Part shown: piece after piece, positions 1-38,789 of the stretch
Layout of the letters: every line of letters starts with the position of its first letter
How positions within the stretch are numbered: position 1 is the stretch's first letter
From: a virus
DNA: 38,789 bases
Virus record (IMG/VR): IMGVR_UViG_3300025687_000014
Span: 1 to 38,789 of that record
Reading direction: 5' to 3' (one strand)
Notes under the pieces: model-generated
What the model was told of the DNA's origin: nothing
Seen by the model: the letters and a program-made list of their open reading frames with translations, nothing else
The model's database searches: none
Program-made: the position numbers and the translations under genes

Positions 1-127
1 GGCGCAATGCAGCGTGCTGAGACATTCTTCAATGAAACTCCACTAGGACAAGGGCTTCTTGGTGCTGGTCGATTCGGTCAGGAATTTACAGAGTCAGGAA
101 TGTTTGGTGCTGGCGGTATTGCAAGAC
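1..127. repeat. 127-bp terminal overlap, copy 1 (circular closure)
   Basis: Bases 1-127 are identical to bases 38663-38789, and the reading frame of the giant protein continues across the join. The contig is therefore closed on itself with a unit length of about 38,662 bp. An overlap of exactly 127 is a common maximum k-mer in short-read assemblers, so it is more likely an assembly overlap of a circular or circularly permuted genome than a real terminal repeat. Confidence 0.95.
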
Positions 128-5699: not shown

Positions 5700-6584
5700 A
5701 TGGCTAATGGCTACACAACCACAGACCAGATGGCAGTTAGTCTGCCTACGGTCGTCGCACAGGCTCGTGTTGTGCGAAAGTACGATGGTGTAATGCAGCA
5801 GTTGTCCGACCGAGTAAATCTTGGTCAGGGCGTTGGTAACAACTGGCGCGAGATTTCTCTTGCACAGTTGACCGCTGTAAACATCACTGAGAACACTGAG
5901 GAAGACAACCCTCAACAGTTGTCCGACAGCGTGTTCACTGTTACTCCTTCGGTTATTTCAGTCCACACGGTTATTACTGACCGAACGGCACGAAACATCT
6001 CGAAGAACGTTTTTGCCAAGACTGGTCAACTCGGTCAGCAGGCAATCGAAACTCAGAAAGACAAGGACGGTCTTGCCGTTCTTGACGGTGCAACCACCCA
6101 ACTTGGTTCCGCTGGTTCGGCACTCACCTCTGGTGTAATCGCTGCTGGTGCATACCGAGTACGAGGTAACACCACTGAGCCGTGGTCTGGAAAAGTAGCA
6201 TTTGTGCTTCACTCATTCCAGATGAAAGACCTCTACGACGAACTCGTAGCCGGTGTCGGTACTTACGCTGACGTAGACGGACTTACCGCAGAAGTGTTCA
6301 AGAACGCTTTCAACCTTCCAATCGCCAACGCCCAGGGATTCACGGATGACAACATCACGATTGACGCAGCCGACGACGCTAAAGGTGGCGTCTTCGCTTC
6401 TGGTGCTAACGGGGCTGTTGTACTGGTACAAGCGCGCGCACCTTGGGTAAAGATGGTTCGTAACGAGGGACTTGGTGGCGGTGCATCTGAGATGTTCCAC
6501 CGTGACGAGTACGCTTACGGCGAGCGATCTGCCGGTAACTGGATTTACGAAGTCATTTCTGACGCAACTGCGCCAACCTCGTAA
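5700..6584 (+). CDS. Major capsid protein
   Basis: 294 residues, immediately after the scaffold and before a putative decoration protein. The length and composition (Thr/Ala/Val-rich, no cysteine) fit a HK97-fold coat protein. Segments such as DRTARNISKN and VVLVQARAPWVKMVRNEG resemble the helical-spine and P-domain regions of coat proteins from related environmental phages. The ATG at 5700 follows AGGAAACAAAACA. No separate protease or head-fusion domain is seen. The assignment rests mainly on gene order and length. Confidence 0.75.
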   Translation: MANGYTTTDQMAVSLPTVVAQARVVRKYDGVMQQLSDRVNLGQGVGNNWREISLAQLTAVNITENTEEDNPQQLSDSVFTVTPSVISVHTVITDRTARNISKNVFAKTGQLGQQAIETQKDKDGLAVLDGATTQLGSAGSALTSGVIAAGAYRVRGNTTEPWSGKVAFVLHSFQMKDLYDELVAGVGTYADVDGLTAEVFKNAFNLPIANAQGFTDDNITIDAADDAKGGVFASGANGAVVLVQARAPWVKMVRNEGLGGGASEMFHRDEYAYGERSAGNWIYEVISDATAPTS

Positions 6585-6595
6585 GAGACTAACTG

Positions 6596-6793
6596 ATGAC
6601 TGTTCGTAAGACAGAAAAAGACGGTGTGCTTGTTGGTGTGGGTGACTCTGTGAAATACAAGAAGTCCTCACGCTCGCGAGCAGTCACCGCTTCAGTAATT
6701 GATGTTCAAGATGCCACGCTCGGCATACTCCACTTGGATGTGAAGGGCGATATCATCAAGAACGTAGGCAGAGACCAGTGGGTTTCTGCTTGA
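6596..6793 (+). CDS. Small head-associated protein (SH3-like barrel?)
   Basis: 65 residues between the capsid and decoration genes. It is basic at the N-terminus with alternating hydrophobic residues (VGVGDSVKY, ASVIDV, ILHLDV) that suggest a small beta barrel. Small barrel proteins next to coat genes are often head-completion or coat-stabilising factors. The role is inferred from position only. Confidence 0.6.
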   Translation: MTVRKTEKDGVLVGVGDSVKYKKSSRSRAVTASVIDVQDATLGILHLDVKGDIIKNVGRDQWVSA

Positions 6794-6825
6794 TCTAGGC
6801 TCATTCAGAGTAAAAGGAAAAACAA

Positions 6826-8996: not shown

Positions 8997-9733
8997 TGAC
9001 TACCGCCAAAGACCTCGCAGACATGTCTAACGACCTCGAAGAGCAGTCAGTTGAAGAACTGATGTACGCTGCTGAAGAGGCTATCGTTGAAGACGACGCA
9101 CAGGAAGGCGATCTAGTAAACCGCCCATCTGCTGACAATCCTCTTGGAATGCGGGTGGACGAAGTGTTGAGTGCGGGTCACGTATGGGTGTACGACATCC
9201 GAAACGGCGACCGATCACGCATCAACCGAAACAACCTCCAAGTGCAACTGGGGAAACGTGACCCTGACACTGGGAAACGTGTATTTACCACTGACAAGAA
9301 CTACCCAGGAATGCCCGACCCTGTTGTTGGGCAGTACAAGTGCATCCTTCACAAAGACTCTCCAGACCGTGAGAAGTACGACCAGCAGGGATTCCCTGTT
9401 TGCAAGAAGTCCAACCTGATGTCACCGAGTGAGGTAGACAACCACGCACGTAACCGTCACCAGCAGGAATGGCGACAGATTCAGGAAGCACACGAGCGTG
9501 AGCGTGACGACCGACGAGAGCAGATCGAGCGATTGCAGCTTGAACGGCTACTCAATGAGACTGGCACGGCTCCACAGCCAGCCGCACAGCCCGTTCAAGA
9601 GGCTGTTAGCACCATAGAGTCACCTGAAGAGTTCCGAACGTGTCTTAAGTGCGACGACTGGACGAACGACAATCCGAAGTTGGCATCCCGCAGGATGTCC
9701 TTCTTCCACCACAACAAGAAGCACGAGGGCTAA
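8996..9733 (+). CDS. Two-zinc-finger late protein
   Basis: 245 residues. The N-terminus is acidic. Near residues 114-160 there is a zinc-binding arrangement with Cys (YKCILH, FPVCKK) followed by His-x3-His (HARNRH). A charged coiled-coil-like helix covers about 163-185. A second C2H2-like unit closes the protein (CLKC near 214, HHNKKH at the end). It sits immediately before the adaptor gene. Zinc-finger proteins in this position are unusual; the role could be structural or regulatory. Confidence 0.65.
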   Translation: MTTAKDLADMSNDLEEQSVEELMYAAEEAIVEDDAQEGDLVNRPSADNPLGMRVDEVLSAGHVWVYDIRNGDRSRINRNNLQVQLGKRDPDTGKRVFTTDKNYPGMPDPVVGQYKCILHKDSPDREKYDQQGFPVCKKSNLMSPSEVDNHARNRHQQEWRQIQEAHERERDDRREQIERLQLERLLNETGTAPQPAAQPVQEAVSTIESPEEFRTCLKCDDWTNDNPKLASRRMSFFHHNKKHEG

Positions 9734-11005
9734 ATGTCTGACGTTCTGATTGCACAATCCAGAACAGAACTGCGACAGAGCATTGGTTGGCAGTACGGCG
9801 GTCTTGAAACACACACCGCCACTGCCACTGGCTCGACTTCTACATTCGTAGACGCAGAACTGGATAATACTGACGATTACATCAATGGTCGGTACTGGTA
9901 CGGCACGTCAGGAACGAACAGTGGCTCACAACGGTTTGTGAATGACTACGTTGGCTCCACAACCACTGGTACTTTGAGGGGCGATGTTCTCGGTGCTACG
10001 GTTGCAGACGGTGACACCTACGAACTGTGGGACAGAGACATCAACCCCAGAAGAGTTCACGACGCAATCAACCGCGCCGTTCGCTCTATTCCCCGCAAGG
10101 CATCCCCGCCATTACGCGACATATCTCTCCACACATCAACTCACACGAACACTCTTGCCATCCCAACCAACACGGTTGGGCTTACTTCTGTTGAGGTAAG
10201 GCTGAACAACACACGTCGAACAATCGAGAACTGTGACAGTGTGTGGACTGAACTGGTAGACGGTGACGTAACAGCCACGGCAGACACCGAGATGAAGCGA
10301 CAGGGTTCTGCTTCCAACAAGTTCGTGCTTGCGGCAGGGATTGATGCAGGCGACATTATCGCCACCAACTCGATTGAATCTACAGACTTCTCCAAGTTCA
10401 CTCATGTCGAGTTCTTTATTTATTCAACGGTAGCAACATCAGCAGGCGACATACAACTTCTTCTAGATAACACTGCTCAGTGTGCATCTCCGTTGGAAAC
10501 CTTGAGTGTGCCAGCCCTTACAGCGGATACATGGACGTGGGTGCGAGTAGCACTGGACAACCCTGAATTAGACACAGCCATTATCTCTGTAGGGCTGAAG
10601 CACACCGTAGACATTGGTGCTGCAACGATCTATCTGGATGGAATCGAAACTACTGTTGACGGTTCCGAAGACTGGATTCCTATTCACCGCAACGGATGGA
10701 AGATCGACCGTGACGGGCGGCAGTTGATACTCAACTACAACTTGATGCCTTCTGGCGGCGACTACGCCCTGGTGAAACTGATTGGTGTGAAGAAGCCGAC
10801 CGAGTTGACCACAGACAGCACCCAATGTGACATCGAGCCTGAGTACATCGTTCACAAGGCAACGGCTATCTTGATGCGTGCCAGGGGCGACAGACGTGAC
10901 GCTAACCGTGACGCTGCGTTCTTAGAGGCAGACAGGTACGAGGCGTTGGCTCTGGACGCACTCAGTCGTCAACAGATTTCAGGAAGCGTTCGGTGGGTGG
11001 ACTAA
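9734..11005 (+). CDS. Putative head-tail adaptor with inserted carbohydrate-binding-like domain
   Basis: 423 residues. The two ends look like one helical adaptor: TELRQSIGW at the N-terminus, RVHDAINRAVRSIPRK near 105-122, and EYIVHKATAILMRARGDRR plus EADRYEALALDALSR at the C-terminus. Between them, roughly 170-310, lies a beta-sandwich segment (FTHVEFFIYST, IQLLLDNTAQC, TWTWVRVALDN, ATIYLDGIETT) of the type found in carbohydrate-binding modules. This helical-beta-helical layout is seen in podovirus neck/adaptor proteins. ATG 9734 follows a GAGGG site. Confidence 0.65.
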   Translation: MSDVLIAQSRTELRQSIGWQYGGLETHTATATGSTSTFVDAELDNTDDYINGRYWYGTSGTNSGSQRFVNDYVGSTTTGTLRGDVLGATVADGDTYELWDRDINPRRVHDAINRAVRSIPRKASPPLRDISLHTSTHTNTLAIPTNTVGLTSVEVRLNNTRRTIENCDSVWTELVDGDVTATADTEMKRQGSASNKFVLAAGIDAGDIIATNSIESTDFSKFTHVEFFIYSTVATSAGDIQLLLDNTAQCASPLETLSVPALTADTWTWVRVALDNPELDTAIISVGLKHTVDIGAATIYLDGIETTVDGSEDWIPIHRNGWKIDRDGRQLILNYNLMPSGGDYALVKLIGVKKPTELTTDSTQCDIEPEYIVHKATAILMRARGDRRDANRDAAFLEADRYEALALDALSRQQISGSVRWVD

Positions 11006-11193
11006 TGGCAGGAATACACACTTCATATTCAACTGAACTGCTGGCTACTAAAGCGTTACAGCAGTCATTGCTTGACGAAACAGAAGTAACTAACTTCGAG
11101 TTGGATAACATTCAGGATGGCACTGAGCGTGTTCAACAGCAACTTGGTCAGTTGACCGGAATAAACCTAGAGAAAAACGAAAGAGTTGAGTAA
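11005..11193 (+). CDS. Small helical late protein
   Basis: 62 residues from ATG 11005, which overlaps the adaptor stop (TAATG). It is mostly helical with coiled-coil potential (LATKALQQSLLDE, ERVQQQLGQL). Its stop overlaps the start of the next gene (TAATG). No family recognised. Confidence 0.65.
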   Translation: MAGIHTSYSTELLATKALQQSLLDETEVTNFELDNIQDGTERVQQQLGQLTGINLEKNERVE

Positions 11194-19849: not shown

Positions 19850-19984
19850 ATGAAAGCACTATTTCGGAAAACGTGTGGCAGGTGTAATCACAGGTGGTTC
19901 CCTCGTACGACAAGGGAGCCGATAAGATGCCCTTCCTGCAAATCCCCGTACTGGAACAAGGAACGTCAGAGGAAATCTAAATGA
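19850..19984 (+). CDS. Rubredoxin-like zinc-ribbon protein
   Basis: 44 residues: Cys-Gly-Arg-Cys-x-His-x-Trp-x-Pro-Arg, then Cys-Pro-Ser-Cys-Lys-Ser-Pro-Tyr-Trp-Asn. This is a common stand-alone zinc ribbon of bacteria, archaea and phages. Its stop overlaps the next ATG (ATGA). A TATAAG sequence 15 bases upstream might be a -10 element, but no good -35 accompanies it. Confidence 0.75.
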   Translation: MKALFRKTCGRCNHRWFPRTTREPIRCPSCKSPYWNKERQRKSK

Positions 19985-20325
19985 CAGCCAATCCAGAGAC
20001 ACCAGAAACCAACAACCCTGAAGAGGAAGTTGTTGAGGCTGCTCCGAAGAAGCCTGTGCGTAAGCGCAAGCCAGCAGCAAAGAAGCCCACTGCTAAAAAG
20101 CCTGCTGAGAAACCCGCATCTCCAGAAGAGGTTGCCGCTCAATTCAAAAAAGGCATTGATGAGGCAAAGGAAAAGTTTGTTGATGCCACTGTTGAGCCAG
20201 CCAAGGAAGTAGTCAATACGTGGGCTGCTATCGCTGACTACGCCGCTGACTACGCAGTGAACGCCAAAGACGGTGTGCGTGGCTGGTGGGATGGCTTCAT
20301 CGGCAACAAGAAGAAGGACGAGTAA
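19981..20325 (+). CDS. Lys/Pro/Ala-rich protein with C-terminal amphipathic helices
   Basis: 114 residues. Residues 22-46 are a histone-H1-like run of Lys-Lys-Pro and Ala-Lys-Lys-Pro units; residues 47-105 are amphipathic helix (VAAQFKKGIDEAKEKF, WAAIADYAADYAVNAKDG) ending in GWWDGFIG. It could bind membrane surface or nucleic acid. It is the first gene of a chain of short overlapping genes that leads into the TatC gene. Confidence 0.65.
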   Translation: MTANPETPETNNPEEEVVEAAPKKPVRKRKPAAKKPTAKKPAEKPASPEEVAAQFKKGIDEAKEKFVDATVEPAKEVVNTWAAIADYAADYAVNAKDGVRGWWDGFIGNKKKDE

Positions 20326-20489
20326 TGCATCCTCTCGGCTGGCTGCTCAAGTATTTCTTGATGGCTCTTCTCGGTGCTGTTACTGCTGACAAGGCAATGA
20401 ACATGGTCTTTGAAATGGGGGAACCCTGGCGGGGGATTTTGTTTCGTGGCGGTGGGAACAGTGATCGGGACGATGGGGATGATGCGTAA
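20325..20489 (+). CDS. Small membrane protein
   Basis: 54 residues; ATG 20325 overlaps the previous stop (TAATG). One hydrophobic segment near residues 5-20 (GWLLKYFLMALLGAVTA), then MNMVFEMGEPWRGILF and a very acidic tail. Possibly one membrane helix plus a re-entrant part. Role unknown; member of the terminal membrane-protein module. Confidence 0.6.
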   Translation: MHPLGWLLKYFLMALLGAVTADKAMNMVFEMGEPWRGILFRGGGNSDRDDGDDA

Positions 20490-20586
20490 CACACTTATGT
20501 CTATTCGCGGATACCGCCGAAAAGTCTTCGGTCGGGTAAACAAGTTGGCTGCACTCAGCAGATTTAGCAGCCGAAAGGAATTGTAG
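20479..20586 (+). CDS. Small basic protein
   Basis: 35 residues (MMRNTLMSIRGYRRKV and onward), strongly basic, overlapping the end of the previous gene. A G-rich stretch (GGGACGATGGGG) precedes the start. Kept because it fills the space between two coupled genes exactly; the short length leaves doubt. Confidence 0.45.
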   Translation: MMRNTLMSIRGYRRKVFGRVNKLAALSRFSSRKEL

Positions 20587-20588
20587 AT

Positions 20589-20732
20589 ATGTTTGGAGAC
20601 CCGATGATTATGGTCGGTGCAGGAATCATGTTGGCAATTATTGCCATAGCGTTCCTGTTCAGACTGTATAAGCGGTTTGAGGCGAGAGCCGTAGCCAACG
20701 CAGAGAAAAAGTCTTCCAGCAAGACTGCGTAA
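20589..20732 (+). CDS. Single-span membrane protein, possible TatA-like partner
   Basis: 47 residues: MFGDPMIMVGAGIMLAIIAI, then AFLFRLYKRFEARAVANAEKK and a short polar tail. One short N-terminal membrane helix (about 6-24) is followed directly by an amphipathic basic helix, the overall plan of TatA, and the opening Met-Phe-Gly also occurs in actinobacterial TatA. However, the conserved Phe-Gly before the amphipathic helix is not present. It ends three bases before the TatC gene. The TatA reading depends largely on that adjacency. Confidence 0.45.
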   Translation: MFGDPMIMVGAGIMLAIIAIAFLFRLYKRFEARAVANAEKKSSSKTA

Positions 20733-20735
20733 CTT

Positions 20736-21599
20736 ATGTCAGCCTCGTGGTACGACCGAGGTTATAGTGTTGGACAAAGATGGCGGTGGACGCTTTTACT
20801 AGCGACTGCCGCTTTCTTTATTGGCGCACTTTCAACCTTCTACTGGCACAACGAAGTCTTCGGGTTTCTTCTCGCCCCCGCTGACAACAAGTTGTCTCCG
20901 TTCGATGGCAAGCCGATTGTCACTGCTCCGACTACTATGTTCGGGGCTACTCTTAGCCTTGCTGTACTTGGCGGGAAACTACTTGCGTTTCCGTTTATCT
21001 TCGTTGGTGCGCTCAGTCTTCTGAAACCGCTTGCCCCTCGTGACTGGTGGCGCAGGTTCGTGGCAATCAACGCTGTGGTAGCACTGTTCCTGTTCATCTT
21101 GGGTGACGTGTTCGTGTACTACGTGATGATGCCAGTCAGCATGAGGTTCTTACTGTCGTTCGGCACAGACATCGTTGAACCAGTCATTACCCTCAACGCC
21201 TACATGGAGTTGCTGTTCGCTCTGTTCAAGTGGATTGGAATTGTGTTTATGATTCCGCTGTTTATGAACGTGTTAGCAAGAATGGGGTGGCTGTCTTACG
21301 AGCGAGCCAGGGGGTTCTACAGGGTTGGGTTCTTGTTGACAGCGTTCTTCTCTGCATTGATCTCTCCAGGGTTAGACCCAACGCTGACCGTTATGGTTGC
21401 CGTGCCAATGTATGCACTGTACCTAGTAGGACTGGGTTCTGTGTGGGCGATAGACCCATCAGCAGGGAACTATCTGTGGGTAAAGACCTTTGACGGTTGG
21501 AGAGAGGCTGTCTGGAGCAAGTGGCTACGTTTCTGGAGACTGCCCGAACGCCTTGGCTACTGGTTGGCAGACAAGATTGCCAATGTATTCTCACGATGA
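20736..21599 (+). CDS. tatC: TatC-like twin-arginine translocase subunit
   Basis: 287 residues with about six membrane spans. TatC landmarks in order: IVTAPTTMFG (61-70), a hydrophobic helix with Pro86, the loop at 98-107, GDVFVYYVMMP (123-133), Tyr156, FMIPL (171-175), RARGFYRVG (190-198), ISPGLDPT (209-216, with the conserved Asp214) and VAVPMYALYL (221-230). Cellular TatC passes folded proteins carrying twin-arginine signals. Here residues needed for signal-peptide binding appear lost: Glu of the Phe-Glu-x-Pro motif is Met172, and the N-terminal His-Leu-x-Glu-Leu-Arg is missing. The C-terminus is about 40 residues longer than usual, with a Trp/Arg-rich tail. It may modify host export, anchor an envelope complex or serve lysis. 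Fold assignment is strong, activity open. Confidence 0.85.
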   Translation: MSASWYDRGYSVGQRWRWTLLLATAAFFIGALSTFYWHNEVFGFLLAPADNKLSPFDGKPIVTAPTTMFGATLSLAVLGGKLLAFPFIFVGALSLLKPLAPRDWWRRFVAINAVVALFLFILGDVFVYYVMMPVSMRFLLSFGTDIVEPVITLNAYMELLFALFKWIGIVFMIPLFMNVLARMGWLSYERARGFYRVGFLLTAFFSALISPGLDPTLTVMVAVPMYALYLVGLGSVWAIDPSAGNYLWVKTFDGWREAVWSKWLRFWRLPERLGYWLADKIANVFSR

Positions 21600-21691
21600 G
21601 ATTCCCACGCTGGCTGCTAGACCTGCTGTTACTGGCAGCCGTGTACGGCATTGCTGCGTACTGGGGAGTCTACGTCTGCGAGTGGTGCTGA
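21596..21691 (+). CDS. Tiny membrane protein
   Basis: 31 residues; ATG overlaps the TatC stop (ATGA). MRFPRWLLDLLLLAAVYGIA plus a short AYWGVYVCEWC end gives one membrane helix with a positive N-terminus. Coupling to tatC suggests a joint function. It could be a holin-like or Tat-accessory peptide; nothing distinguishes these. Confidence 0.55.
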   Translation: MRFPRWLLDLLLLAAVYGIAAYWGVYVCEWC

Positions 21692-21695
21692 AGCC

Positions 21696-21782
21696 ATGTG
21701 GCAACACGAACGCCTGATACTACGGCTACTGGCTGTGGTTTTTTTGGCGTATTTGCTGTGGTCATTTGGCGCAATCGACTAG
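21696..21782 (+). CDS. Tiny membrane protein
   Basis: 28 residues (MWQHERLILRLLAVVFLAYL and onward), one membrane helix. It begins four bases after the previous gene and is the last rightward gene. Its stop shares a CTAG with the stop of the convergent leftward gene at 21779-21874. Confidence 0.5.
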   Translation: MWQHERLILRLLAVVFLAYLLWSFGAID

Positions 21783-22008: not shown

Positions 22009-22428
22009 CTACCAACTGATTGACACTTCGACCCTTTCAGAACCACGAGGGCATCGCCACTTTTGCATCGTTATCGTGTCCACCTGGTTGTCGTCAGTCC
22101 ACAAGCCAGCCTCAGAGAGAGCGTCCTCGGTGTGCGACAGTAGGTTCTTCAGGTCAGGCTTCTCCGTGTGGTCTCCGACGCTGCCAGCCTTGTATTTCGG
22201 GGTGTTCTTCTGCCACGGCAAGTAGAAGTTGTAGTCCGCCCGTACTGGTTTGCCAGCAGGAATCGGAAACTGGTCGTTGCCTGCTTCCAACATTGCAAAG
22301 AACGCAGCGTCTACGACCTTCTTCTTCCATTGCTTCACCGCTGGCACATTGAACATGCCTCGGCGGTTAGCCCGTATGCGTGGTCGCTGAGTTGCTGGCA
22401 CGCCCTCTATGGTGAACTCCAGTTTCAT
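22009..22428 (-). CDS. rusA: RusA-like Holliday junction resolvase
   Basis: 139 residues. The family pattern is clear: KPDLKNLLSHTEDALSEAGL (90-109) followed by WTDDNQV (110-116) near the C-terminus, and an N-terminal EGVPATQRPRIRA. RusA enzymes cleave four-way DNA junctions during recombination or before packaging. The usual KPDxDN motif here has Lys (94) at the second Asp position; Asp92, Asp102 and Asp112/113 are kept, so the metal site may differ. ATG overlaps the previous stop (ATGA). It is the last gene before the operon terminator. Confidence 0.9.
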   Translation of the reverse strand: MKLEFTIEGVPATQRPRIRANRRGMFNVPAVKQWKKKVVDAAFFAMLEAGNDQFPIPAGKPVRADYNFYLPWQKNTPKYKAGSVGDHTEKPDLKNLLSHTEDALSEAGLWTDDNQVDTITMQKWRCPRGSERVEVSISW

Positions 22429-22607: not shown

Positions 22608-22981
22608 TACGCCTTCATCCTTTGCAGTAATCTGTACTCTTGCGAGTTCGGGTCTTGCCGCCGCTCTTCTACTTCTGCGAAGTGGCGTTCCAGCATGCTT
22701 TCTGAAATCTCGCCCTGTCGCTTGGCGTTCTGCGGTCGCTGCCCGACTCGTATCTCCTGGGCTGCTGAAGCGTGCAGGTATCTCATGGCTGTGTCGAACC
22801 TGTTGATACCTTGTTCCTTCACAGTATCCTCGAAGTCTTCCAGCCACTCGACCGGATACTCTGGAAACTTGTCTACCCACGTTTTCAGTTTCTCGAAGTC
22901 GTGGTTCACCAGCGAACCTTCAGCGTTCAGCTGTATGCCGACATTCTGGAAGCTGGCTAGGGTTGCTTGTGTGAGGTTCAT
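22607..22981 (-). CDS. Hypothetical protein coupled to the base-exchange enzyme
   Basis: 124 residues from ATG 22981, overlapping the stop of the TGT/DpdA-like gene (ATGA). Helical and charged (FEKLKTWVDKFPEYPVEWLEDF, ISESMLERHFAEVEERRQ). No family recognised. The translational coupling to the modification gene makes a related role possible. Confidence 0.6.
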   Translation of the reverse strand: MNLTQATLASFQNVGIQLNAEGSLVNHDFEKLKTWVDKFPEYPVEWLEDFEDTVKEQGINRFDTAMRYLHASAAQEIRVGQRPQNAKRQGEISESMLERHFAEVEERRQDPNSQEYRLLQRMKA

Positions 22982-23592
22982 AGTGCCAACCTTTCTTGCT
23001 GGCTCAATGTTTTCAACCATCCTTCTAGTTTTGGTAAAAGAATGTCAGGAGCGAACACCAAGTAAGTACCATCGGCTGAGTCGTACCCTGACACCGCAGC
23101 AGCTTTAAGTCTGCGCCAACTGTTTACTCGTCCCATGTGCGTCCACTTTCCTTTGTTCTCTGCCTCTACTGCTAACTCGTAGGCTGCTTCGCTGAGTTTC
23201 CATTCAGTCGTTCCACCAATGAACAAGCAATCGAACTCGTCCCACGGAATATCCATGTTCTCTAGTCCGTTCTGTGCAACCAGCGCAGCCCTGTAGCCCT
23301 CTGCACGCAATAGCGGAAACATCGGAAGAGACTTGTCCATTGTTGCTTCTGCATTGCCTACAACGTCTGGGGCTGTGGCAAACAGGCATCGCTTGGAATA
23401 ATCTGCTCGCTCACGCAACCACGCCAGGTATTCTTCTTGGTCGTACTTCTCAGGTTGATTGAAGCAACCCGTATCAGCAGCCCACAGCGTACCGTTGAAG
23501 TCCACCTTGTTACCGATCATAGGTGTAAGCATGTAACCCGTATTCGGGCGACACACCAACGCCTTATTGATTGCGCCAGATAGGTAAATCAT
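22978..23592 (-). CDS. dpdA: TGT/DpdA-like 7-deazaguanine insertase
   Basis: 204 residues. Motifs in order: ADTGCF (39-44, the Asp-Ser/Thr-Gly site), FATAPDVVGN (71-80), VAQNG (105-109), FIGGTTEWK (124-132), HMGRVNS (152-158) and DSADG (171-175). These match the short phage proteins annotated as queuine tRNA-ribosyltransferase and related to DpdA, which exchange guanine in DNA for a 7-deazaguanine. It is much shorter than bacterial Tgt (about 370) and lacks its C-terminal zinc site. It starts inside the transporter gene, with AGGA six bases before ATG 23592. The neighbouring transporter supports a base-salvage role. Confidence 0.85.
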   Translation of the reverse strand: MIYLSGAINKALVCRPNTGYMLTPMIGNKVDFNGTLWAADTGCFNQPEKYDQEEYLAWLRERADYSKRCLFATAPDVVGNAEATMDKSLPMFPLLRAEGYRAALVAQNGLENMDIPWDEFDCLFIGGTTEWKLSEAAYELAVEAENKGKWTHMGRVNSWRRLKAAAVSGYDSADGTYLVFAPDILLPKLEGWLKTLSQQERLAL

Positions 23593-24073
23593 TGCGGTTC
23601 CTGTAAATGTAGAGCGGGATAACGAACGTTAGCGTCATGTATGCCTTACCGACCAATTGACCTTCGATGAACGCAAGGCTACCGAACGCCATCCATAGGA
23701 AGATCACTGAGTCAACGGTCAACCCGCCGATATTGCTGACGGTGATTGCACCCAACCAGTTCCGTTTACGCAGTGGTGAGTAAATAGAGAAATCAACCAA
23801 CTCAGACACGGTAAATGCTGTTGCTGATGCGATTGCAAAAGTTGGCTCAATCCACCAACTCAGGAATCCACCGATAGCAATAGCGACAAGCACCCAATAA
23901 CGACCACCTGATTCATGCAGTAAGTCTCGTAACGTGAATCCTATTCCAGCAAAAAAAACACCAGCTGGTGCTGATAGTCCGAAACCCACCGACACAAACC
24001 CAAACTCTTTTAGTGCTGCGTTTGCCGCAAGAACTGTGCTTGCGAACGCTGCTGCTAGTAATACTCTTACCAC
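23564..24073 (-). CDS. yhhQ: Queuosine-precursor transporter, VUT/YhhQ family
   Basis: 169 residues, about five or six membrane spans. Family motifs: FTLRDLLHE (46-54), ATAFTVSELVDFSIYSPLRKRN (84-105) and SNIGGLTVDSVIF (113-125). YhhQ-type proteins import 7-deazaguanine precursors such as preQ0 and preQ1. GTG start at 24073 with GGAGG seven bases upstream, overlapping the end of the SSB-like gene. It is followed by the DpdA-like gene, so import and insertion are co-expressed. It is shorter than bacterial YhhQ (about 220), as usual in phages. Confidence 0.9.
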   Translation of the reverse strand: MVRVLLAAAFASTVLAANAALKEFGFVSVGFGLSAPAGVFFAGIGFTLRDLLHESGGRYWVLVAIAIGGFLSWWIEPTFAIASATAFTVSELVDFSIYSPLRKRNWLGAITVSNIGGLTVDSVIFLWMAFGSLAFIEGQLVGKAYMTLTFVIPLYIYRNRNDLPIWRNQ

Positions 24074-30890: not shown

Positions 30891-31364
30891 ATGACTACCG
30901 AAACAAAGCTAACTGATAGACAACAGATGTTCGCGAAAGAGTACGCATACTCAGGTAACGGTACTCAGTCAGCAAAGAATGCAGGGTACTCAGTTAACGG
31001 TGCTCACGTTACTGCTAGCCAACTACTAACTATTCCTAAGGTTAAACAAGAGATAGCACGTATCAGAGAACTGGAAGACTCTAAGAGAACCGTTGACCAG
31101 AACTTCGTAATCCAGAGACTTATACACTTCGCGACCAACGCAGAAGTCGAGTCCAACGCAGTACGCGCAACCGAACTATTAGGTAAACATCTCCGTATGT
31201 TCGTTGACGTATCTGAGTCCACAGTTCACCACGACACACAGCCGTTACAGCCGTTCACACTAGCCGAACTACTGGCACTGCGTGAACAGGCTCTCTCTGT
31301 GGACGCGAACACCCAAGACGGAGAGTTCAAGGTTCTCCCTGAGAGTAAACCGGCAGAAGATTAG
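30891..31364 (+). CDS. terS: Terminase small subunit
   Basis: 157 residues. The N-terminal half matches the Terminase_2 small subunit: LTDRQQMFAKEYAYSGNGTQ, SAKNAGYSVNGAHVTASQLL and IPKVKQEIARIRELE, an HTH DNA-binding unit that recognises the packaging site. A helical oligomerisation part follows (NAVRATELLGKHLRMFVD), and a C-terminal tail. It is alone in its direction: its neighbours on both sides run leftward, and terL is 2.3 kb away. Confidence 0.88.
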   Translation: MTTETKLTDRQQMFAKEYAYSGNGTQSAKNAGYSVNGAHVTASQLLTIPKVKQEIARIRELEDSKRTVDQNFVIQRLIHFATNAEVESNAVRATELLGKHLRMFVDVSESTVHHDTQPLQPFTLAELLALREQALSVDANTQDGEFKVLPESKPAED

Positions 31365-33666: not shown

Positions 33667-35184
33667 ATGGCGACTGAGACACCGACTTATACAGTACGTG
33701 ACCTAGAGCGAGAGATCGTTTCTAGGTCTTTTGTTCATTTTCTGGAACACGTAAAACTGCTCGACCCGCCTACTGCCACATCTCAGGGCGGAATTATCCA
33801 ACTGAAACTGTGGAAGCACATCAAAGAAGCCGCTGTTTTACTGGCTGGCTCCGATACTGAAGACCCGAAGAGACTCATCTCTGTACTCAAAAGCCGCCAG
33901 ATTGGGTGGTCGTGGATTCTGGCTGCGTATGCCACGTGGAAAGCCCAGTACCACGAAGGCGCAAACGTACTTATCTTCTCGCAAGGACAACTTGAATCCA
34001 GCGTGTTCCTTGGCAAGTGCAAGACCATCATGGAAAACTTGCCTCCGCATTTGCAAACTGGCACTGGTCGGTCGAACGACACCACAGTTACGTTCCCGTC
34101 CATGAAATCCAAGATTACCGCACTGCCGTCAACTGAGAATGCGGGTCGTGGTGAGACTGCAACGCTTGTAATTCAAGACGAAGCGGACTTTCACGAGAAC
34201 CTGGAACTGAACTACGCAGCCATCAAGCCAACAATTGACCGTGGCGCACAACTGATTCAGGTCTCAACGATCAACAAAAAGACCGCTGGCTCTCTATTTA
34301 AAGAGATTTACCGTAATTCCGAGACAAACGGCTTCCACAAAGTGTTTCACGGCTGGCGCAGTGTCCCAGACAGAGACGACGAGTGGCACGCACGGGTGAA
34401 GAAAGAGGCTCCAACCTCTGAGGGCATGACTCCTGAACTCTACATGGAGCAGGAACACCCAGAGACTGAAGAAGAAGCATTACGTCCAACACGGGCAATG
34501 GCTGCATTCGACACAGATGCACTTGAATCTATGCAGAATGACGCTAAAGACCCTGTTGAAACGAGAAATGGGGTGGTCAATATCTACCAGAAGCCTGCTG
34601 TCGGGAAGCGGTATGCGGCTGGAACGGACACTTCCCACGGAACAGGAAACGACTATGCAACTACCGCTATCATTGATGTTGAAACTGGTTACGTGGTTGC
34701 CGATGTTGATTCTCAAACGCTTGCTCCAGAGCATCTTGCCCAGGAATCCGTTCGGCTCCTTGAAGACTACGGCAATCCGATCTGGGCTATCGAAGATAAC
34801 GACTGGGGTCAACTCACAATCGACAAAGCGAGAGACCTCAAATACCCAAGACTCTACGAAAGGCGTAATCCCAACGGTCAACCTTCAGGAAGGGTTGGTT
34901 GGCATACGGATTCCCGCTCTCGCCCGCTTCTCTGGGGTGAGCTTATCGAAGCTGTTCGAGAAAGATTGATTACAATTCCCTCTAAAAACGGGCTTTCACA
35001 GTTCTCAACCGTCATCAGAAACCCTGATAAGGACGGTCGCATCGAAGCAATGGTCGGCACACATGATGACTACCCTATGGCAGTTGGGTTAGCATGGCAG
35101 ATGCGGAAAGAGGCATATCATCAAGATTCCAAGATCAAAGTTATCTCTCGGAAAGAAAGACTTCGCAGGCTAGGCAAACTCTAA
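33667..35184 (+). CDS. terL: Terminase large subunit
   Basis: 505 residues. ATPase domain: Walker A variant KSRQIGWS (75-82), Walker B LVIQDEAD (167-174) with catalytic Glu172, coupling motif QVST (198-201). RNase-H-like nuclease: GTDTSHG (319-325, Asp321), WAIEDND (373-379, Glu376) and THDDYPMAVGLA (465-476, Asp467/468). The Walker A lacks Gly-Lys but has the upstream Lys typical of this terminase class. The enzyme pumps and cuts DNA at the portal. Start ATG 33667; the portal begins at the base after its stop. Confidence 0.97.
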   Translation: MATETPTYTVRDLEREIVSRSFVHFLEHVKLLDPPTATSQGGIIQLKLWKHIKEAAVLLAGSDTEDPKRLISVLKSRQIGWSWILAAYATWKAQYHEGANVLIFSQGQLESSVFLGKCKTIMENLPPHLQTGTGRSNDTTVTFPSMKSKITALPSTENAGRGETATLVIQDEADFHENLELNYAAIKPTIDRGAQLIQVSTINKKTAGSLFKEIYRNSETNGFHKVFHGWRSVPDRDDEWHARVKKEAPTSEGMTPELYMEQEHPETEEEALRPTRAMAAFDTDALESMQNDAKDPVETRNGVVNIYQKPAVGKRYAAGTDTSHGTGNDYATTAIIDVETGYVVADVDSQTLAPEHLAQESVRLLEDYGNPIWAIEDNDWGQLTIDKARDLKYPRLYERRNPNGQPSGRVGWHTDSRSRPLLWGELIEAVRERLITIPSKNGLSQFSTVIRNPDKDGRIEAMVGTHDDYPMAVGLAWQMRKEAYHQDSKIKVISRKERLRRLGKL

Positions 35185-38410: not shown

Positions 38411-38789
38411 TTGGTCTTCCCTTTTGGTGTTGGCGACCCCAGAGATGACATTGACCGAGTTGCCCGTGAACTAACCGGCAACCAGTTTCGCCTGAAACGT
38501 GACGACCCAGACGCAGGGCAGAAGTTCCTCGATTTCGTGGCGCAGTCTGAGCAGGACTTTGCACAGATTCAGCAGTCACCTGTTCCAACTGGTGTTCAGG
38601 CGACACCCGCTGCTGCACAGCCAACGGCATCCCCTGTCGATCTTCAACCGCCTCGTGATAAAGGCGCAATGCAGCGTGCTGAGACATTCTTCAATGAAAC
38701 TCCACTAGGACAAGGGCTTCTTGGTGCTGGTCGATTCGGTCAGGAATTTACAGAGTCAGGAATGTTTGGTGCTGGCGGTATTGCAAGAC
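38411..38789 (+). CDS. Giant putative DNA-ejection protein, 5' part (continues at base 1)
   Basis: This is the true start of the 1552-residue protein that continues at base 1. Translation begins at TTG 38411, preceded by a strong Shine-Dalgarno (AGGGAGG, about six bases upstream). The first ATG seen at base 7 of the window is internal: the 86 codons before it are open and read MVFPFGVGDPRDD and onward. The N-terminal region is rich in Gln, Pro and Ala and looks flexible. The gene follows the 112-residue gene by 15 bases, in the same operon as terL and portal. Confidence 0.85.
   Translation, partial: MVFPFGVGDPRDDIDRVARELTGNQFRLKRDDPDAGQKFLDFVAQSEQDFAQIQQSPVPTGVQATPAAAQPTASPVDLQPPRDKGAMQRAETFFNETPLGQGLLGAGRFGQEFTESGMFGAGGIAR
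38663..38789. repeat. 127-bp terminal overlap, copy 2 (circular closure)
   Basis: Exact copy of bases 1-127; it lies inside the 5' part of the giant protein gene. See copy 1 for interpretation. Confidence 0.95.

Follow-up and report, generated by a model that had tools for sequence, protein, structure and literature searches.

The usual view of TatC is that of a receptor for twin-arginine signals, and the occurrence of its gene in a bacteriophage raises the question of what such a protein does there. The gene lies in viral DNA of 38,789 nucleotides (IMG/VR virus record IMGVR_UViG_3300025687_000014), hereafter called the window, by which the whole stretch is meant. An earlier note, made from the sequence alone, had described it as an unexpected TatC homologue with a decayed recognition site. 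The first and last 127 bases of the window are identical, which closes the sequence into a circle, and this exact terminal repeat together with the terminase subunits (Table 1) identifies the window as a complete phage genome. Searches for tRNAs and Rfam families in the window returned none. At 22978-23592 and 23564-24073 (-), a PHROG 15826 protein, whose function is unassigned, overlaps a VUT-family transporter gene (PF02592), a pair that we presume may point to modified-base metabolism.

Table 1. Positions of the TatC cassette and of marker features in the window.
Feature	Position	Strand	Evidence or remark
Terminal repeat, left copy	1-127		127/127 match to 38663-38789
g1, 114 aa; charged low-complexity N-terminal half, C-terminal helix-like region	19981-20325	+	Conserved cassette position
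g2 frame A, N-terminal and hydrophobic (54 aa if unshifted)	20325-20489	+	ORF, codon-phase test
Putative +1 shift site CCC-T in g2	20424-20427	+	Variable codon position switches from frame A to frame B
g2 frame B, basic C-terminal part	20428-20586	+	Codon-phase test; joined to frame A by the putative +1 shift
g3, 47 aa; one span, N-terminal acidic residue, basic tail	20589-20732	+	A counterpart immediately precedes tatC in each scorable locus
Phage TatC, 287 aa, ATG start	20736-21599	+	PF00902, AlphaFold model, residue table, dN/dS
One-span mini-protein, 31 aa	21596-21691	+	ATG overlaps tatC stop (ATGA); near-identical in L003
One-span mini-ORF, 28 aa, possible last cassette gene	21696-21782	+	RBS and hydropathy scan
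RusA	22009-22428	-	
Small terminase subunit	30891-31364		
Large terminase subunit	33667-35184		
Terminal repeat, right copy	38663-38789		127/127 match to 1-127

By sequence family and by fold, the ORF is a true TatC. It matches Pfam PF00902 with an E-value of 3e-33 and 115.8 bits, above the curated cut-off of 25.1, has a TatC as its best PDB sequence match (E=1.9e-15), and contains the motifs GDVFVYYVMMP, ISPGLDPT and VAVPMYALYL in which the earlier note had recognized the TatC signature. Its score of 97.5 bits against TIGR00945, the NCBI TatC equivalog, falls under the cut-off of 132.7, as is expected of a divergent family member. A match to PHROG 36238, a family with no function assigned, was also obtained (E=1.3e-12). 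An AlphaFold model was built from a 69-row alignment, with the small upstream gene g3 fused in front of TatC and its stop codon read as Gln; pLDDT values were ~90 over most of the TatC part and lower in the g3 part of this fused chain. Foldseek searches with the TatC model returned, below E=0.001, TatC entries only (E 8e-9), and VIA-align gave a Z-score of 20.3 with 4b4a and 4hts (rmsd 3.5-3.8 over 222-225 residues), the first unrelated entry reaching 5.8. TatC is the best structural match by a wide margin, and not another six-span family, as the earlier note had allowed for.

The viral database search proposed in the earlier note proved productive. With the window included, 13 phage TatC loci were found in 12 contigs, the 12 loci beyond the window being either full (L002 in G005, L003 and L105 both in G001, L106 in G013, L107 in G071, L108 in G072, L109 in G073, L248 in G465 and L250 in G466) or cut by contig ends (L110 in G074, L111 in G075 and L251 in G467). 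A scan of viral contigs revealed copies 80% and 63% identical to that of the window, and the others were reached via terminase, other phage TatCs and g2 searches. In the records searched via the terminase set plus L003, TatC was present in 3/50, most of these records being short fragments, and the final two viral contig scans yielded no additional TatC contig. Contig G001 (64.6 kb) holds two very different TatC cassettes, at about 18.9 kb and 60.3 kb, and may be chimeric. Three other entries filed as phage, CAKLQH020000005.1, AFYI01000004.1 and AGRM01000003.1, either have tatC among ordinary bacterial genes or are contigs from bacterial whole genomes, and look like host DNA.

The closest cellular relatives found for these proteins belong to a single phylum. 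When genomes were scanned with four phage TatCs, using two peptide patterns that bias the search towards kin, the best 80 loci all belonged to Chloroflexota, mostly Dehalococcoidia and SAR202. In an 83-row tree, the ten full-length phage TatCs formed one clade (SH-aLRT 100) nested within the Chloroflexota rows, and a Baikal Dehalococcoidia TatC (host L112) grouped beside this clade with a support of 95. This tree has five outgroups only and long branches, and some host-like "phage" records served in it as outgroups only. On the simplest reading of these sequence relationships, phage tatC would have been captured once, long ago, from a host of the Dehalococcoidia/SAR202 type; given the few outgroups and the long branches, this falls short of proof. 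The 3' end of the gene has probably undergone recombination, as the end of tatC and the mini-ORF behind it are near-identical in the window (about 21520-21691) and L003 (about 10960-11135), whereas the whole genes are about 63% identical.

One might suspect contamination, a chimera or a host gene in transit, as other TatC matches obtained from the phage database resemble host DNA (Acinetobacter, Salmonella), and the earlier note had linked close identity to a host tatC with this reading. The window TatC is 21-32% identical to the host rows, within an overall range of about 21-44% for phage against host TatC. The genome is complete with its terminal repeat, the same cassette recurs in contigs from other samples, and the phage proteins form a clade of their own that has diverged strongly from hosts; on these grounds we dismiss this reading, to which next to no probability attaches.

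Phage and host proteins differ in the residues expected of a signal receptor. In E. coli, cryo-EM (2026) places H12, E15, F94, Y100 and E103 of TatC around the signal peptide, and Glu8 of TatB docks on a TatC polar cluster formed by M205, T208 and Q215 (PMC13323110); the substitutions E103G/K and F94S abolish or cripple activity, and F94L and E15G leave at least some of it (PMC3712464). Eleven scorable phage copies were compared in E. coli numbering with 68 Chloroflexota host rows, in which F94 is invariant and H12, E15 and E103 are invariant bar one unreadable letter each. All 11 phage copies have lost H12, E15 (Arg in 10, Trp in 1) and F94 (Leu in 10, Asp in 1), and E103 is lost in 9/11; position 100 is uninformative, Tyr being missing in hosts too. 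P48, P85, G121, Y126, P131 and D211 are kept in every phage copy that reaches them. Because single F94L and E15G changes keep some activity in E. coli, the loss of signal reading is argued from the combination of residues. On this comparison, phage TatC is not expected to recognize the usual twin-arginine signals, as the earlier note had proposed.

That note had rested its case on two features of the window protein, which do not carry the same weight. The alignment confirmed the absence of the N-terminal His-Leu-x-Glu-Leu-Arg. Residue 172 is indeed Met, where the E. coli counterpart is Glu170, but position 170 is Met, Met and Leu in the window sub-clade and Glu or Gln in the other phage copies, and Gln also occurs in 17/68 host relatives. 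Being specific to the sub-clade, Met172 is not key evidence, and of the two features the missing N-terminal motif tells more. The T208/Q215 pair is kept in phage copies outside the window sub-clade and L105; within the window sub-clade the polar cluster is changed (T208S, Q215T) and E170 is lost too, so that partner binding is uncertain there. In place of the HLxELR of hosts, the sequence ahead of TM1 in L106, L107, L108, L109, L248 and L251 reads GRR(V/I)R or ARR(V/I)R, which loosely resembles a twin-arginine signal; the window clade has QR or ER in place of RR. Relative to E. coli and Aquifex TatC, the phage proteins carry a C-terminal extension.

None of this amounts to decay. Compared with its nearest relative, L002, the window TatC has a dN of 0.071 and a dS of 1.08 (dN/dS about 0.07), and L106 and L107 give a dN/dS of 0.10. 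With ratios of about 0.07-0.10 and the core residues kept, phage TatC is a case of selected re-use, and a decayed pseudogene is ruled out. Contrary to the "decayed" of the earlier note, the gene evolves under strong purifying selection and has diversified within phages as one clade.

Nor does the gene stand alone, since tatC belongs to a conserved cassette. The order g1, g2, g3, tatC was found in every locus uncut upstream by a contig end, with L248 carrying an additional HNH-endonuclease-like ORF (6225-6797) that separates g2 from g3. A mini-ORF similar to the 31-aa one follows the second TatC gene in G001 (L105). Family HMMs, which include sequences that they find, detected g1-g3 beside TatC only, and none in three long TatC-less relatives (G046, G022 and G041). 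An independent test of this linkage was provided by a scan with g2 only, which reached three new contigs, all with TatC downstream (3/3). When clades were left out, a fused window-clade g2 HMM matched the unsplit g2 of G013 and G071 (E about 0.0015) and the g3 of L105 was recovered at 1e-5; no g3 or g1 match linked the window clade to the remaining copies, so the equivalence of g1 and g3 across clades rests on position and layout. Other membrane and processing genes occur nearby in some phages: a VTT/DedA-family membrane gene adjoins the cassette in L002 (6232-6681, -), L107 (6962-7507, -) and L086 (666-1229) and is absent there in the window, and an ORF near the cassette of L003 (12496-13035, -) has weak similarity, below cut-off, to signal peptidase/S24 peptidase. 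Around the cassette, E. coli-type promoters showed no excess over shuffles.

The layout of the g3 family, with an acidic or polar residue near the N-terminus, one span and usually a basic tail, is like that of TatA and TatB. PF02416 (TatA/B/E) had a match at E<=10 in 0/12 phage records, g3 included, and TatA/TatB genes are present in 20/20 host genomes. Profile comparison of g3 with host TatA by hhalign gave a probability of 11% or 1%, with no significant kinship, and g3 has no TatA FG hinge motif. As neither PF02416 nor the profile comparison returned anything significant, g3 was rejected as a TatA homologue.

In the window (20325-20586), L002 (4385-4646) and L003 (about 9596-9860), g2 is split over two frames, whereas most other copies are unsplit and read in one frame. 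The pattern of variable sites among these three phages changes frame at the sequence CCC-T (window and L002) or CCC-G (L003). Before CCC, variable sites fall on frame-A third positions (24/33, against 12 and 6); after it, frame-B third positions predominate both in the overlap (9/19, against 5 and 4) and downstream of it (19/32, against 8 and 7). No start codon in frame B is common to the window, L002 and L003. These data fit a +1 shift in the g2 of the window clade, located at CCC or close to it. Fold z-scores of +0.7, +0.1, -1.1 and -1.2 gave no significant signal of RNA structure at the shift site. The g2 of L250 (6001-6272) is also split, at T-TTT-TTC, a point that lies similarly far along the protein; it would need a -1 shift and, seen in one contig only, could be an assembly error. 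A g2 model built from relatives was of low confidence (pLDDT 57).

The host of these phages is probably a wall-less marine member of the Chloroflexota, of the Dehalococcoidia/SAR202 type, as suggested by the kinship of TatC and by a terminase match. A terminase 50% identical to that of the window was found in 1/393 host-class genomes, on one MAG contig that could be mis-binned. PF00905 (PBP transpeptidase) is missing from 20/20 host relatives, and 10 control bacteria score for it; PF04101 scored above cut-off, weakly, in 2/20 of these relatives. SAR202 bacteria have been reported to possess S-layers and no peptidoglycan (PMC11994032), and most Dehalococcoidia orders to have lost peptidoglycan synthesis in a single event (PMC10284905). 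In the window, the cassette closes the late operon, between tail/fibre genes and small basic proteins on one side and a convergent RusA on the other, which suggests late expression. Most membrane proteins encoded on the late strand, as detected by a simple hydropathy scan, come from the cassette. A late-operon slot is no proof of lysis, and in TatC-less relatives this slot contains no recognized lysis gene; the slot protein of G041 was considered as a known holin and set aside, having no Pfam match. Holin families gave no match above cut-off with the cassette proteins, two sub-threshold matches (E=0.046 and 0.18) being at chance level, and no endolysin was recognized among the window proteins searched, which are part of the set.

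From these observations, phage TatC has probably been turned to another membrane job, for example virus exit. We rank cell exit ahead of a dedicated phage translocase, and the latter ahead of inhibition of the host Tat system. The reading placed first is held tentatively, with a likelihood short of even: a membrane module derived from Tat that would act independently of a signal and serve cell exit, in which we infer the binding of g2 and g3 to TatC, the working without a signal and the outcome itself. After a single capture, the phage would have uncoupled tatC from twin-arginine signals, retaining the scaffold and, in the majority of lineages, the TatA/TatB-holding surface. TatC would then nucleate the assembly of g1, g2, g3 and, in some phages, the mini-protein, with no need for a cargo signal, g2 being made by ribosomal frameshifting at least in the window clade. 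Such an assembly could open or weaken the cytoplasmic membrane and act as a holin-like Tat complex in a host with no peptidoglycan to digest. This proposal draws on the TatC fold, the Chloroflexota kinship, the lost signal site with its core kept, the purifying selection, the conserved cassette and its late position, the concentration of late membrane proteins in it, and hosts without transpeptidase; it is weakened by a g3 with no detectable TatA homology, by the lack of a holin family match and by the absence of a recognized endolysin. More doubtful is its fully specified version, in which signal-blind TatC, frameshift-controlled g2 and a TatA-like g3 would permeabilize peptidoglycan-free Chloroflexota and permit exit without a cell-wall enzyme.

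A phage-specific Tat translocase, in which TatC, g3 (as TatA) and g2 (as TatB) would export one or a few phage proteins bearing a different signal, is unlikely on present evidence yet comes next. Its cargo could be an S-layer-breaking or receptor-masking protein. The succession of a small one-span gene and tatC reproduces the layout of a tatA/B-tatC operon, the transport-required core residues P48 and D211 are kept, and the replacement of E15 by Arg in nearly all copies looks like directed change and not drift. An Arg-rich entrance replacing an acidic one would go well with a signal that is itself acidic, and several phages have such a region at the N-terminus of g1; this half of g1 is acidic in L086, L107, L109, L248, L250 and L251, but not in the window clade, L108 or L105. 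F94 and E103, which matter for function in E. coli, are lost as well, and neither g3 nor g2 is a TatA/TatB homologue by profile. No exported cargo was recognized: the earlier note had envisaged a phage-specific substrate, and the twin-arginine scan found no convincing one among the genes on the coding strands of the window. Less probable still is a signal-blind subunit that would join host TatC/TatA/TatB and poison export, stopping host functions or excluding other phages. It would account for a TatC scaffold and, in most lineages, a TatA/B-binding polar cluster that outlasted the signal site, and for the six copies with RR[VI]R and then a hydrophobic helix at the TM1 entrance, a pattern replaced by QR or ER in the window clade. 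A poison subunit needs no fixed partnership with g1-g3, the distance between phage and host proteins is such that mixed complexes may not form, and a place in the late operon would come late for a takeover. The least probable of these functional readings, with little in its favour, makes TatC, g2 and g3 a scaffold that organizes virion assembly or DNA entry at the membrane, with neither export nor lysis. The cassette does directly follow the tail/fibre genes and small basic proteins, but relatives without TatC exist, and to our knowledge a six-span membrane protein is not required by any partner in the capsid or tail.

A TatC scaffold that remains under strong selection without its receptor, and with new small partners, raises the question of what a signal-free Tat complex can do. 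Should the cell-exit reading hold, it could provide a first entry point to the release of phages from SAR202 and its relatives, abundant ocean cells without peptidoglycan. In the open-access papers searched, we came across neither a lysis system for these bacteria nor an account of the receptor loss, the cassette or the g2 frameshift.

TatC in a phage is already annotated and is not new in itself. Circular marine viruses with genomes of 35-40 kb have been given a PF00902 annotation, one of two being linked to Porticoccus (PMC10564846, Fig. 6); compared by description, and from annotation only, these are likewise small circular marine phage genomes with TatC. The PHROG 36238 family is matched by the window TatC more weakly than Pfam TatC. 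With the E. coli and Aquifex proteins (PF00902), the phage copies share the six-span fold, the sequence family and the conserved core residues from P48 to D211; in contrast to them, they are without H12, E15, F94 and usually E103, and the window sub-clade is also without E170 and the T208/Q215 cluster. The closest cellular relatives found are the TatCs of Dehalococcoidia and SAR202, among which the phage clade nests; unlike the phage copies, all 68 host rows retain the receptor residues wherever these can be read, and these hosts have TatA/TatB. Phage holin/antiholin cassettes differ from the present one, which includes a Tat protein and in which neither a holin family match above cut-off nor an endolysin was recognized, yet the two are alike in consisting of small membrane proteins that end the late operon, with g2 possibly made in two forms by recoding.
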